The notes below the pieces were generated by a model. The model did not search any database, was not told the DNA's origin, and was given only the letters and a program-made list of their open reading frames with translations. The position numbers and the translations under genes are program-made. A DNA stretch of 64,000 bases from an uncultured Bryobacteraceae bacterium (GTDB lineage Bacteria > Acidobacteriota > Terriglobia > Bryobacterales > Bryobacteraceae), in NCBI GenBank assembly GCA_938027685.1, contig CALJAM010000011.1, positions 124,001 to 188,000 of the forward strand. The letters run 5' to 3'. Every line of letters starts with the position of its first letter. Positions within the stretch are counted from its first letter, which is position 1. Below are positions 4,059 to 9,273 of this stretch, piece after piece.

Positions 4059-5366
4059 GTGCCGGGCGCGATCGTCATTGGCGGGGGGCTGGCGGGCATG
4101 GCAGCGGCTCTGGCCCTTCGCGAAGCGGGTTTCGAGGTCGAAATTTTCGAGGCCGGCAGGGAGTCCGGCGGCCGGGCGGGATCCATGCGGTTGGCCGAGA
4201 CCGGCGAGTGGGTGGACGCCGGCCAGCACATTCTGCTCGGCTGTTGCCGCAACCTGCTCGATTTCTTTCGCCGCCTCGGCGTCGAGCATCTGATCCGTTT
4301 TTACGACCACTTCATCTTCATCGAGCCGGGCGGCACGAGGTCCCGGTTGCCGGCGGCGGGTTCGACCGCCATGCGGTTGCTCGGCTTGCTGCGTCTGCGG
4401 TTCCTGCGGCTGCGGGACAAGCTGGCAGTGGTGCGCGCGATCCGGGGCGTGCGTCGCGAGCTGGCGTTAAGCGAGCGTCTCGACGCGGTCTCGATGGCTC
4501 AATGGCTGGAAAGCAAGCAACAGACGCCGCGCGCGCGAACAAGGTTCTGGCGCCCGCTGCTCGTCAGCGCGCTCAACGAGGAGCCGGAGCGCGTTTCCGC
4601 GTGGCATGGTCTTCAACTGATATGGCTGACGTTTCTCGCCGGGAGCGAGGGCGCGCGGCTGGGCGTGCCGGCCGTTCCGCTTTCCGAGCTGTATGGCGCA
4701 GGGCGTTGGCAGGCCATGGAAAAGGTGACGCTGCGGCTCGGCGCGCGGGTCGGAAGGCTCCACGCGGAGGGGAATCGCGTCGCCGCTCTGGAGGCGGACG
4801 GACTCAGGTACAGCGCGGACTTTTACGTTCTGGCGACGCCTGCGGACCGTGCTCGCGCGCTGATGCCGGAGTTGGAACTGCCCGTCTTCGAGACCTCGCC
4901 CATTGTCGTGGTTCATCTGTGGTTCGATCGCCCGGTGATGGACGTGGACCAGGCCGCGCTGCTCGATCGCACGATCCAGTGGGCGTTCAACAAACGGGAG
5001 GGTCGTTACGTACAGCTGGTAATCAGCGCGGCCCGCGGCCTCTTACCGCTCGCCAAGGACGCCATTGTGCGAATGGCCGTAGGCGAGCTGGCCGAATATT
5101 TCCCGCAGGCGCGAGGCGGGCGGCTCGCGCGGGCGCTGGTGGTGAAGCACCTGCATGCGACGTTTGCGCCGTTGCCCGGCCTGCGACGGCTCCGCCCGGC
5201 TGCGGAGACGCGCTGGGGGAACCTCTTTCTGGCGGGTGATTGGACCGCGACCGGCTGGCCGGCGACCATGGAGGGCGCCGTGCGCAGCGGCTACCTGGCG
5301 GCGGAGGCCGTCACTCGCGCGGCAAACGTTCCCCGCCGTTTCCTGATCCCGGATCCGATGCCGTAG
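4059..5366 (+). CDS. hpnE: Hydroxysqualene dehydroxylase HpnE
   Basis: A 435-residue FAD-dependent amine-oxidase-fold protein, starting at a GTG directly after the trpE(G) stop. The dinucleotide motif VIGGGLAGMAAALALREAG lies at residues 5-23, followed by the acidic strand end EIFEAG. GQHILLGCCRNLLDFFRRLGV, WRPLLVSALNEEPERVSA and the C-terminal GNLFLAGDWTATGWPATMEGAV fit the squalene-associated HpnE family. HpnE removes the hydroxyl of hydroxysqualene to yield squalene for hopanoids. The partners HpnC and HpnD are not in this window, so they must be encoded elsewhere. The zero spacing to trpE(G) suggests co-transcription without an obvious metabolic link. Confidence 0.87.
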   Translation: MPGAIVIGGGLAGMAAALALREAGFEVEIFEAGRESGGRAGSMRLAETGEWVDAGQHILLGCCRNLLDFFRRLGVEHLIRFYDHFIFIEPGGTRSRLPAAGSTAMRLLGLLRLRFLRLRDKLAVVRAIRGVRRELALSERLDAVSMAQWLESKQQTPRARTRFWRPLLVSALNEEPERVSAWHGLQLIWLTFLAGSEGARLGVPAVPLSELYGAGRWQAMEKVTLRLGARVGRLHAEGNRVAALEADGLRYSADFYVLATPADRARALMPELELPVFETSPIVVVHLWFDRPVMDVDQAALLDRTIQWAFNKREGRYVQLVISAARGLLPLAKDAIVRMAVGELAEYFPQARGGRLARALVVKHLHATFAPLPGLRRLRPAAETRWGNLFLAGDWTATGWPATMEGAVRSGYLAAEAVTRAANVPRRFLIPDPMP

Positions 5367-5384
5367 GGGCGCCGGTCGGGAGTC

Positions 5385-5882
5385 TTAGAAGCGCTCCCAG
5401 TGTAGGACCTCGGCCAGCGGGCGTTTGGGCGCCCTTTCCGGAAGTTCCGGGGCGGGCCACCCAATGGGGATGAGGCTGATCAGCTTGTACTCGGCCGGGG
5501 CGCTCAGGGCCTTCAGGACGTGTTCGGCATAGGGCTTCTTGTCGCCGGCGACCCAGCAGGCGCCCAGGCCGCGCGCGTGGGCCGCCAGCAGGATATTCTG
5601 GGTGGCCGCGCTGCCATCTTCCAGGAAGTATTTCGCCGGGCGGCAGATCACGGCAATGCAAGCCGCGGCGTCGGCGATGAAACGGCCGTTATCGGTCAAC
5701 TCCGCGATCTCGTGCAGCTTCCGGCGATCGCGCACCACGACGAATTCCCACGGCTGCTCGTTGCGACCGCTGGGCGCCAGGCGCGCGCAATCCACCAGCT
5801 CCTCAAGCAGGTGGGCGGGAACTTCTCCGGGCCGGAAGTAACGAACGGAACGACGAGTTTTAAGTGCTTCGATGGCTTCCAT
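5385..5882 (-). CDS. Nitroreductase family protein
   Basis: A 165-residue flavin oxidoreductase of the short nitroreductase type. The N-terminal FMN-phosphate motif KTRRSVRYF lies at residues 8-16, followed by LAPSGRNEQPWEFVVV, in which the family usually has AxSxxNxQPW. The C-terminal half has AATQNILLAAHARGLGACWV and LISLIPIGWP, both typical of the fold. Such enzymes use NAD(P)H to reduce nitro groups, quinones or flavins, and the physiological substrate cannot be read from sequence. The gene is convergent with hpnE (18 bp between stops) and divergent from the peptidase that begins at 5903, only about 20 bp away. Confidence 0.9.
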   Translation of the reverse strand: MEAIEALKTRRSVRYFRPGEVPAHLLEELVDCARLAPSGRNEQPWEFVVVRDRRKLHEIAELTDNGRFIADAAACIAVICRPAKYFLEDGSAATQNILLAAHARGLGACWVAGDKKPYAEHVLKALSAPAEYKLISLIPIGWPAPELPERAPKRPLAEVLHWERF

Positions 5883-5902: not shown

Positions 5903-6874
5903 ATGCTACGACACGTGCCGGGCGCGCGGGCATTGCCACGCGCTTTGCGGGGCTTCTATGCTGGTAACGTGGCCTTCCGCCCGCCGTCCGCGGCTGAGCG
6001 CCTGCTGGCTTTAGGTCCTACCGGCAATTTACCCGAGGGCTTGCGCCGGTCGTTCGATCCGGGAGACGATTTCGAGCCGCTGCCCGAGCCCGGTCCCCAC
6101 GACTGGCTGGCCCACCAGCCGGAACGCGGTCAGACTTTCCAGCAGTTCGTAGAATCGCGCCCCGCGCGGCCGGAGCCTCACCGAAGCGTGCTCTACCTGC
6201 AGCCTTTGGGCGAATTCCGCTGCGGTCAGGCACCGCCGCTCGATCAATTGCGCCGTTTCGCGTCGGCGTTCTTCATGATGAACGTGCAACTGCTCCCCCC
6301 GGTGGATCCCGCCAGCACGCGGATCACGCAGCGCCGCAATCGCTGGACCGGGCGTGTGCAGTGGCTGACGGGAGACCTCTTGGAACTGCTACGGCGCCGC
6401 ATGCCGCGCGACGCCTTCGCCCTGATCGGCGTCACCATGACCGATCTGTATCCGGATCCTGCTTGGAACTTCGTCTTCGGGCAGGCCTGGGTGCAGGAGC
6501 GGGTGGGAGTTTACAGTTTCGCCCGCTACGATCCGCAGTTTTACGGCGAAGAGCGCAAGCCGGACTGGATGCGGCTGCTGCTGCGGCGGAGCGTGAAGGT
6601 GCTGGCGCACGAGGTGGGCCACATGTGCGGCTTGGCGCACTGCATCTGGTACCGGTGCCTGATGAACGGCTCGAACCACCTGGAGGAAGCCGACGCCCGG
6701 CCCCTGCACCTTTGCCCGATCGACCTACGCAAGCTGCAATTCAGCCTTGGTTTCGAGCCTGTTCAGCGCTACCGTCGGCTGCTGGAATACCACCGCAGCG
6801 TCGGCTTCGAGGACGAGGTACGCTGGATCGAACGCAGACTGGCGCGGATCGAAAGGGGCGCGGCTGCGAACTGA
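5903..6874 (+). CDS. Archaemetzincin (AMZ1/AMZ2-like zinc metallopeptidase)
   Basis: A 323-residue peptidase carrying the archaemetzincin signature. HEVGHMCGLAH occupies residues 236-246, then Cys247, Cys252 and Met254, then a downstream Cys271. The family motif expects a second CxxC cysteine, but here it is Asp274 (CPID), so the structural zinc site has lost one ligand while the catalytic HExxHxxGxxH is complete. The N-terminal half (HDWLAHQPERGQTFQQF, then ALIGVTMTDLYPDPAWNFVFGQA and FARYDPQFYG) resembles animal AMZ1/AMZ2 over its whole length, unlike the short archaeal enzymes. No signal peptide is evident, so it is probably cytoplasmic. The substrate is unknown. Confidence 0.85.
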   Translation: MLRHVPGARALPRALRGFYAGNVAFRPPSAAERLLALGPTGNLPEGLRRSFDPGDDFEPLPEPGPHDWLAHQPERGQTFQQFVESRPARPEPHRSVLYLQPLGEFRCGQAPPLDQLRRFASAFFMMNVQLLPPVDPASTRITQRRNRWTGRVQWLTGDLLELLRRRMPRDAFALIGVTMTDLYPDPAWNFVFGQAWVQERVGVYSFARYDPQFYGEERKPDWMRLLLRRSVKVLAHEVGHMCGLAHCIWYRCLMNGSNHLEEADARPLHLCPIDLRKLQFSLGFEPVQRYRRLLEYHRSVGFEDEVRWIERRLARIERGAAAN

Positions 6875-6888
6875 CCTCCGTCGCGTAG

Positions 6889-8223
<1,335 letters not shown>

Positions 8224-8280
8224 AGGCGGTCCTCCCATGAACCCTCTATGCTAGTCGAAGCGGGCGCCGGGTCGTCAGGC

Positions 8281-9273
8281 TCAGCGGGTCTTGAATTCGG
8301 CGACCAGGGCGGCCCGCTCGCCCCGTTCCCAAGTCCGGTGAATGCGTTCCTCCGGCCAGCCGGCGATGCGGCCCAGCAGCAGAAAAGCAGGCAGGGCGTG
8401 ATCGAGGACCTTCCATTGAGCCATCTCGATGAGCGATGAGAGCGCCCGCTCCCGGATATGTTCGAGGACGCGTGGGGGACGGTCCTCGGTCAGATTCACG
8501 AGTGCGGCGGCTGCGCGGTAGCGATCACTCCAGACGATGGAGTTCAGCAGCTCGATGAACCAGGTCGGCTCCACGCGCAGGCCGAGTTCGGGATCGTTTC
8601 GTGCGAGCACCGCGATGGCCGAGAGCGCGCGCATGGCGTTGGCCCGCACGCCTTCGTCGGCATCCTGCATGGCGTATTGCAGGTCTTCTACGACGCCGCG
8701 CGCACGCGGCTCGTAGCCGATGAGGTAGGCAGCGATGGCCCGCTGGTCGTCGTGCATGGACTTGCGCAGCACCTCGCGCAAAAGCGCCAGGTGCGTGCGC
8801 GCGAACTCGCGGAAGCGCTGCTGGTAGGCTCGCACGGCGGGATCCGCGGCCAGGGCGTAGCCCTGGGAAAGATCTTCCCGCACGGGACCTTTTCGCGCAG
8901 CCTCTTCGAGCGCGCGGACGAAGCCGCGGTAAGTCTCGATCAGTGCCGGAGGCAAGGTCAGATTGGCGCGCGGCGGATAGCGAAACGTGAAGCGAGGAGC
9001 GCCTTTTTCCTCGATCCCCACGTACAGGATGGCGCCGCCGTCGTGGCAGCAAACTGCCTCCAGGCGGGCGCGCACCACCTCGGGCAAACTTTCCAGGCGT
9101 TCTTCGAGGAGCGCCTTCGACGGCGGCAACGATTCGCCCTCACGCACTCCAAGGATTCGACGGACGCGTTCGGCTGAGAGCTTTCTCAGGCCATAAACGT
9201 CTATGACGGCCACGCGGGGTGTTTGGGCGAGGGCGCCGACGCAGAACAGAACTGCCGCCGCGAGGATTCTCAC
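8281..9273 (-). CDS. Secreted POTRA-like plus HEAT-repeat protein
   Basis: The open frame is longer, but the sequence before 9273 is the antisense of the neighbouring DUF4870 gene. The GTG at 9273 begins a signal peptide (VRILAAAVLFCVGALAQ). The mature protein starts VAVIDVYGLRKLSAERVRRILG, then has a GES-LPPSKALLEERLESLPEVVRARLE segment and ends the domain with IEEKG. This layout resembles a POTRA domain as in FtsQ or BamA. From about residue 190 helical HEAT-like repeats follow (VRANAMRALSAIAVLA, RYRAAAALVNLTE). The protein is 330 residues with no membrane anchor beyond the signal. A periplasmic protein-binding role is an inference; the exact function is unknown. Confidence 0.75.
   Translation of the reverse strand: MRILAAAVLFCVGALAQTPRVAVIDVYGLRKLSAERVRRILGVREGESLPPSKALLEERLESLPEVVRARLEAVCCHDGGAILYVGIEEKGAPRFTFRYPPRANLTLPPALIETYRGFVRALEEAARKGPVREDLSQGYALAADPAVRAYQQRFREFARTHLALLREVLRKSMHDDQRAIAAYLIGYEPRARGVVEDLQYAMQDADEGVRANAMRALSAIAVLARNDPELGLRVEPTWFIELLNSIVWSDRYRAAAALVNLTEDRPPRVLEHIRERALSSLIEMAQWKVLDHALPAFLLLGRIAGWPEERIHRTWERGERAALVAEFKTR

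Follow-up and report, generated by a model that had tools for sequence, protein, structure and literature searches.

A bacterial AMZ2-like long-form archaemetzincin with aspartate as a probable alternative ligand at its predicted structural metal site

The protein encoded at positions 5969 to 6874 of the window (the whole stretch of 64,000 nucleotides analysed here, from an uncultured Bryobacteraceae bacterium) is quite probably a cytoplasmic, AMZ2-like long-form archaemetzincin, with an intact catalytic motif, a predicted archaeal-type core fold, extensions to that core, and Asp274 as a putative alternative metal ligand. It is a real, selected member of the family, probably active as a peptidase.

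The open reading frame at 5903-6874 (+ strand), as given in an earlier note on this DNA, does exist in the window and lies on contig G000:C11 of a 45-contig genome, but its ATG is unlikely to be the start, and GTG 5969 is favoured. In one congener (L005), an in-frame TAA stands between the position of that ATG and the conserved part of the protein, and the first ATG, GTG or TTG after this TAA is a GTG matching GTG 5969. Since the stop codon breaks the upstream frame, the gene is probably 5969-6874 (301 residues plus stop), and the 22 additional N-terminal residues of the ATG version are probably not translated. The matches of relatives to the window protein start at GTG 5969, and several leaderless relatives have their initial Met close to this point (MAF, MPF, MHF). 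The features are as follows:

5385..5882, - strand: nitroreductase family protein (PF00881, 88 bits), divergent neighbour, not thought to be part of the system
5969..6874, + strand: long-form archaemetzincin (M54), from GTG, 301 residues plus stop
5969..6172, + strand: extension at the N-terminus that reaches past the archaeal structures, roughly residues 1-68 of 301, and contains DW and QTFQQFV
6608..6640, + strand: putative catalytic zinc site HEVGHMCGLAH, residues 236-246 (ATG numbering)
6641..6724, + strand: putative structural metal site, C247, C252, C271 and D274, with the Met-turn M254; the Asp codon GAC is at 6722-6724
6758..6865, + strand: predicted C-terminal helical extension, residues 264-299 of 301 (secondary structure of the model), beyond the archaeal core
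6889..8238, - strand: Gfo/Idh/MocA-type oxidoreductase (label from reading the sequence), convergent neighbour, not thought to be part of the system

The gene order around the long form is kept in both congeners but in none of the three next relatives checked, and a metabolic operon in the window was dropped as a candidate. The gene is 86 and 85% identical in the two congeners, and a congener's record labelled Bryobacteraceae (an acidobacterial family; L063) is 88% identical over the protein. With dN/dS values of 0.065-0.100 among the three congeners (a simple Nei-Gojobori count, with dS near 1), the long-form gene is under purifying selection in this group.

The window protein scores 52.6-52.8 bits against Pfam Peptidase_M54 (PF07998), above the cut-off of 24.4, and all 50 rows of the alignment of locus proteins (A4) match this profile at E 0.01 or better. 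Archaeal archaemetzincins of the PDB match it at E 1.2e-12 to 2.9e-8. The metzincin motif HExxHxxGxxH is present as HEVGHMCGLAH, intact in the translation as the earlier note had said, and its H, E, H and H are kept in 123 of 123 covered long rows; the Gly of HExxHxxG (the G243 column) is replaced by Ser, Thr, Asn or Lys in 43 of these 123. The Met-turn residue (M254 in the window protein) is Met in 103 of the 123, and Leu, Val, Phe, Glu or Ile in the other 20. Against the NCBIfam model NF033823 (archmetzin), the protein scores 98.4 bits, below the cut-off of 145, and the published Cys4 fingerprint C..C..CxxC (Graef et al. 2012) fails in it, as C247, C252 and C271 are followed by Asp274. We thus regard it as a member of M54 by Pfam and by predicted fold, and yet as a variant, because it fails the fingerprint and misses the NCBI archaemetzincin cut-off.

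An AlphaFold2 model built from the 50-row alignment (mean pLDDT 95.3, pTM 0.93) has as its best PDB matches four archaemetzincin entries (Z 15.8-17.2 over 160-175 residues), followed by snake-venom and ADAM metzincins at Z 10.7 and lower. The archaeal chains align within model residues 69-262, and the fold is predicted to be the archaeal metzincin core with N-terminal (1-68) and C-terminal (264-299) extensions; W46 and L47 are invariant across the 50 rows. Archaeal AmzA (MkAmzA 2x7m, AfAmzA 3zvs/4axq, MlAmzA 3lmc; MEROPS M54) shares with the window protein the metzincin core, the HExxHxxGxxH motif and the Met-turn, as well as three of the four finger Cys, and the match to 2x7m is ungapped from the third His to C271. 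The fourth ligand position is Cys in AmzA, according to Graef et al. (PMC3427221), and Asp here. The earlier note's remark on the shorter length of archaeal relatives is correct for the four archaeal sequences with solved structures (160-210 residues, against 301 here), and no AmzA counterpart aligned to the N-terminal 68 residues or to the last helices.

His236, His240 and His246 would hold the catalytic zinc, and Glu237 would activate water for the cutting of a narrow set of peptides, while Cys247, Cys252, Cys271 and Asp274 would jointly hold a structural metal ion in a Cys3Asp rather than a Cys4 site. The archaeal AMZ-tk degraded casein when zinc was supplied, and its mutants assigned key roles to the zinc-binding His and the catalytic Glu (PMC4681839), whereas Graef et al. 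(2012; PMC3427221) found two archaeal members with the full motif inactive on the substrates they tested. The latter paper also describes CarG of Myxococcus xanthus, like the window protein a bacterial M54 relative, as a regulatory protein without activity (PMC3427221), and one might propose that the window protein is likewise a non-catalytic binding or regulatory subunit. The CarG model NF033824 (Myxo_non_zincin) indeed matches all 50 rows at E 1e-5 or better. This reflects general family similarity, and the score of the window protein is 39.3 against a cut-off of 250. CarG, moreover, is reported there to have Gln for the catalytic Glu (PMC3427221), whereas the window protein keeps Glu237, as do the corresponding positions in the 123 covered long rows. 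We consider a CarG-like role very unlikely.

At site 274, long forms have Cys in 100 rows, Asp in 21 and nothing else, among the 121 covered of 125 (eleven repeat loci removed); a smaller set of 94 long rows (repeat loci L002, L033, L063, L064 and L124 removed) gives 73 Cys and 19 Asp, with 2 uncovered. Gathering these rows by motif and score will have favoured close relatives. All 41 short forms, acidobacterial without exception, have Cys. The codons are TGC (72), TGT (28), GAC (13) and GAT (8); Cys to Asp takes two base changes, and the single-step intermediates Tyr and Gly are seen in none of the 121 rows. The other three cysteines are kept, with C247 in 123 of 123, C252 in 122 of 123 and C271 in 121 of 121 covered long rows. 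By record labels, the Asp rows span about ten phyla or groups (Acidobacteriota, Planctomycetota, Latescibacterota, Pseudomonadota, Rokuibacteriota, Cloacimonadota, TA06, Gemmatimonadota, Actinomycetota and a Bradymonadaceae member), although nearly all are metagenome-assembled genomes in which single labels may be wrong. In the window's genome the CPID reading of the fourth position, made in the earlier note, is borne out by codon 274 (GAC), and the note's proposal that Cys in sister species would betray a sequence error can be answered: both congeners read CPVD, Asp is thus found in all three species of the genus, and a sequencing error is ruled out.

The earlier note took this Asp as the loss of one zinc ligand, and on that reading the genus would have a lost or decaying structural zinc site, Asp274 being functionless and the finger without metal. 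Asp is the minority state (21 of 121 long rows), and archaeal structures have four Cys at the second zinc (PMC3427221). A position free to decay, on the other hand, fits poorly with a site that is only ever Cys or Asp, without either intermediate, in rows from some ten phyla by label, next to three Cys that are so constant. The pattern of Cys or Asp only points to a kept ligand position, so that loss is not supported, and Asp274 is more likely an alternative ligand (Cys3Asp); decay of the site we hold to be improbable. Asp as a zinc ligand beside Cys has a precedent in RING-type sites such as that of RBX1. Shared ancestry may account for part of the neatness of the Cys/Asp pattern, and the question arises whether Asp has a single origin, as one clade within the long forms whose spread over phyla came by gene transfer. 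AU tests did not reject a single Asp clade (p = 0.15 with 91 rows, 0.177 with 119 rows), and the starred branches of the 91-row tree force only 1 change. The best 91-row tree nevertheless has 6 changes, its bootstrap trees have 5-7, and none of 200 has one; in the 119-row tree there are again 6 changes, and starred branches force at least 2, with L166 lying among Cys rows (on a long branch of a quick tree). The 91-row tree omits L110 and L135, in which the site letters are absent, and L035, of which the C-terminal half only is in frame, and the 119-row tree omits two covered rows of 200 residues or fewer. A single origin is possible, if somewhat less probable than several; whichever holds, Asp is kept once present. 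Some columns correlate with Asp in a search for a compensating, co-varying residue, but with only one supported independent pair we concluded nothing.

The probable cytoplasmic location of the window protein follows from its N-terminus, since it has no hydrophobic leader ahead of GTG 5969 and starts at about the mature N-terminus of leadered relatives. The leaders that many long forms carry end just upstream of a conserved F-x-P-P start, and lipoprotein-like ones are seen, by eye, in an acidobacterial family coded f27. A link between Asp and loss of the leader was considered and set aside, since the split is not clean. A hydrophobic leader is present in 6 of 19 Asp rows and in 42 of 73 Cys rows by a crude hydropathy criterion that asks for an average of at least 2.0 across 10 residues following an upstream Met; it takes Met starts only, stands in for a trained predictor and undercounts.

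In a quick tree of bacterial rows, one branch with an SH-aLRT of 100 splits the long forms (92 rows) from the short forms (41 rows, all Acidobacteriota). A bacterial long form distinct from the short one, which the earlier note had raised, is therefore real, and the window protein does not fall inside the clade of acidobacterial short forms, the placement that the note had named as counting against its reading. Among 61 relatives, 21 have a match, and the long form is confined to the window's genus (3 genomes); the other matches are short, save one that looks like chance (in G058, E 5e-4, residues 37-149), which is an unrelated frame without the active-site motif and was set aside. Matches occur in 67 of 297 genomes from the phylum; a long form is present in 15 of the 67 (E at most 3.5e-45), and the rest of the 67 have the short form only, by score and span. 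A scan of the species collection gave 250 confirmed relatives, and the best 80 of these 250, taken as loci, carry the labels Verrucomicrobia, Planctomycetota, deltaproteobacterial groups, Spirochaetota, Gemmatimonadales, Latescibacterota, Rokubacteria, Cloacimonadota, Hydrogenedentota, Streptosporangiaceae and others. At E 1e-35, and counting the centre genome in each case, the long form is present in 56 of 294 Planctomycetota genomes; for the phyla to which a Desulfobacterales member and a Gemmatimonadales member belong, the counts are 7 of 247 and 3 of 249 genomes, and for the class of a betaproteobacterium 1 of 229. By these trees and counts, the long form is a separate and patchy bacterial lineage. 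Two scans of viral contigs found no viral relatives, and a viral origin was set aside.

The window's genome has both forms. Its short paralogue (on G000:C8, locus L001) shares with the window protein membership of M54 (82 bits with Pfam), but is short, has Cys4 intact, belongs to the separate clade and lies beside an NtrC-type regulator, its reading frame and that of the regulator overlapping by four bases. An NtrC-type sigma-54 response regulator (so labelled by reading) lies within the 1.5-kb flanks of 33 of the 41 acidobacterial short-form loci at E 1e-20 (L001, at 1-1881, and 32 others among L006-L062). The same regulator query found nothing at E 1e-60 in the best 80 long-form loci, which suggests that short and long forms have different partners.

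When the genes around the best 80 of the 250 loci were compared all against all, a radical SAM protein, found in 11 loci, was the one neighbour that recurred over several phyla, the rest being shadow frames or families of few loci or near relatives. This raises the tentative idea that long-form archaemetzincins work alongside AmmeMemoRadiSam-type radical SAM enzymes, for instance by trimming or quality-controlling a modified peptide or protein. In a positional scan of 50 of the 80 loci (those omitted are mostly near relatives), 8 loci have a TIGR04337 match (E 1e-10) no further than 6 kb from the protease, nine genes in all, against 0.36 expected from the density of TIGR04337 in the same genomes (Poisson 2e-10, a value that assumes independence for a family chosen post hoc). 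By record labels, these 8 are Verrucomicrobia (L065, L090), Planctomycetota (L079), Deltaproteobacteria (L087), Syntrophaceae (L091), Acidobacteriota (L101 and L105, the latter with two genes) and Hydrogenedentota (L110); in L065, L079, L091 and L110, the radical SAM gene is on the same strand and adjoins the protease or is one gene away. Three of the nine genes pass the curated AmmeMemoSam_rS cut-off of 220 bits whole (L065 with 332 bits, L091 with 288 and L105 with 266), as does, at 645 bits, a gene of L099, a locus outside the 50. The window's genome itself has three TIGR04337 genes above cut-off and three Memo genes.

Against this stands the fact that the radical SAM neighbour was found by viewing all neighbours, and is thus a post hoc observation. 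Neither the window nor its genus has a TIGR04337 gene adjacent or within 6 kb, and 42 of the 50 loci are without such a neighbour (some of them end at contig ends). Apart from the three genes above cut-off, L090 has a fragment at 200 bits and the five others score 61-92 bits; radical SAM paralogues at 61-82 bits are found in L079, L101, L105 and L110, and L074 has a neighbour of a different radical SAM type. Co-occurrence is weak, with TIGR04337 above cut-off in 43 of 51 long-form genomes against 178 of 297 Acidobacteriota genomes. In Planctomycetota (40 of the 56 long-form genomes, and 40 taken at steps from those without), it is present in 29 of 40 with the long form and 19 of 40 without (p = 0.04, uncorrected for genome size). 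At E 1e-40, TIGR04337 is found in 4 of the 15 long-form genomes of Acidobacteriota, among them the three with AMZ2-like rows (G000, G102, G236), and in none of the 11 f27 genomes, whose long forms are of the lipoprotein type; this argues against a strict dependence. We treat joint action of the two proteins as doubtful, although the radical SAM enzyme is a concrete candidate partner.

Three observations were made along the way. In L065, the AmmeMemoSam_rS-type protein (6922-8292) has, by eye, a twin-arginine-like leader (TRRRAIGLGLAG), unusual for a radical SAM enzyme; the adjacent protease carries a hydrophobic leader as well. In L110, the long form and the radical SAM gene are separated by a gene of the same strand for a DUF2284 predicted metal-binding protein (5234-5809, 140 bits). 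In the window's genome, a Memo gene adjoins a TIGR04337 radical SAM gene (G000:C32:14474-16365) on a contig without either archaemetzincin gene.

The window protein contains DW, QTFQQF, MTDLYP, WNFVFGQA, FARY and GSNHLEEAD just as the earlier note described them, motifs along the whole chain that would be common to it and to animal AMZ2 and AMZ1. Animal AMZ2 has CPIC (Cys) at the site, plus an insert before the active site. In AMZ1, the third His is replaced (PMC3427221). An approximate human AMZ2 query, serving as a lead only, is 41% identical to the window protein over 293 columns. Its profile scores are 298.7 bits for the AMZ2-like bacterial rows, 189.7 for rows of the lipoprotein type and 104.0 for short forms, and none of 200 shuffles was reported at E 10. 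In a quick tree, it groups with 13 long rows in a starred set (SH-aLRT 99) inside the bacterial long clade; its branch is long, and the rows nearest to it are labelled Verrucomicrobia. If the query is faithful to the real sequence, this would be a lead towards transfer from bacteria to eukaryotes rather than an animal gene in a bacterium. One might speculate further, with little confidence, that AMZ1 and AMZ2 stem from the bacterial long-form lineage through a Verrucomicrobia-like donor, and that the protease belongs to the same pathway as AmmeMemoRadiSam. Animals have MEMO1 and AMMECR1. On this view, they would have retained three components of the pathway, bacterial in type, but not the radical SAM enzyme, and one would expect AMZ2 to work together with MEMO1 or AMMECR1.

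Earlier work describes archaemetzincins in "very few eubacteria" (PMC3427221) and includes bacteria in a tree of 50 archaemetzincin sequences (PMC4681839). A literature search, with subscription papers mostly outside it, returned no title or start of an abstract on a bacterial long form, on the Cys/Asp site or on the radical SAM neighbour. The function of archaemetzincins is little understood, and the present data add to the family a long, AMZ2-like type that occurs thinly across many bacterial phyla, whose predicted structural metal site is naturally dimorphic (Cys or Asp) and which in some lineages has a recurring radical SAM neighbour. The swap from Cys to Asp would be a natural experiment on how far a structural zinc site tolerates change, and the bacterial long forms may serve as models, with a concrete candidate partner, for a poorly understood human protease family.
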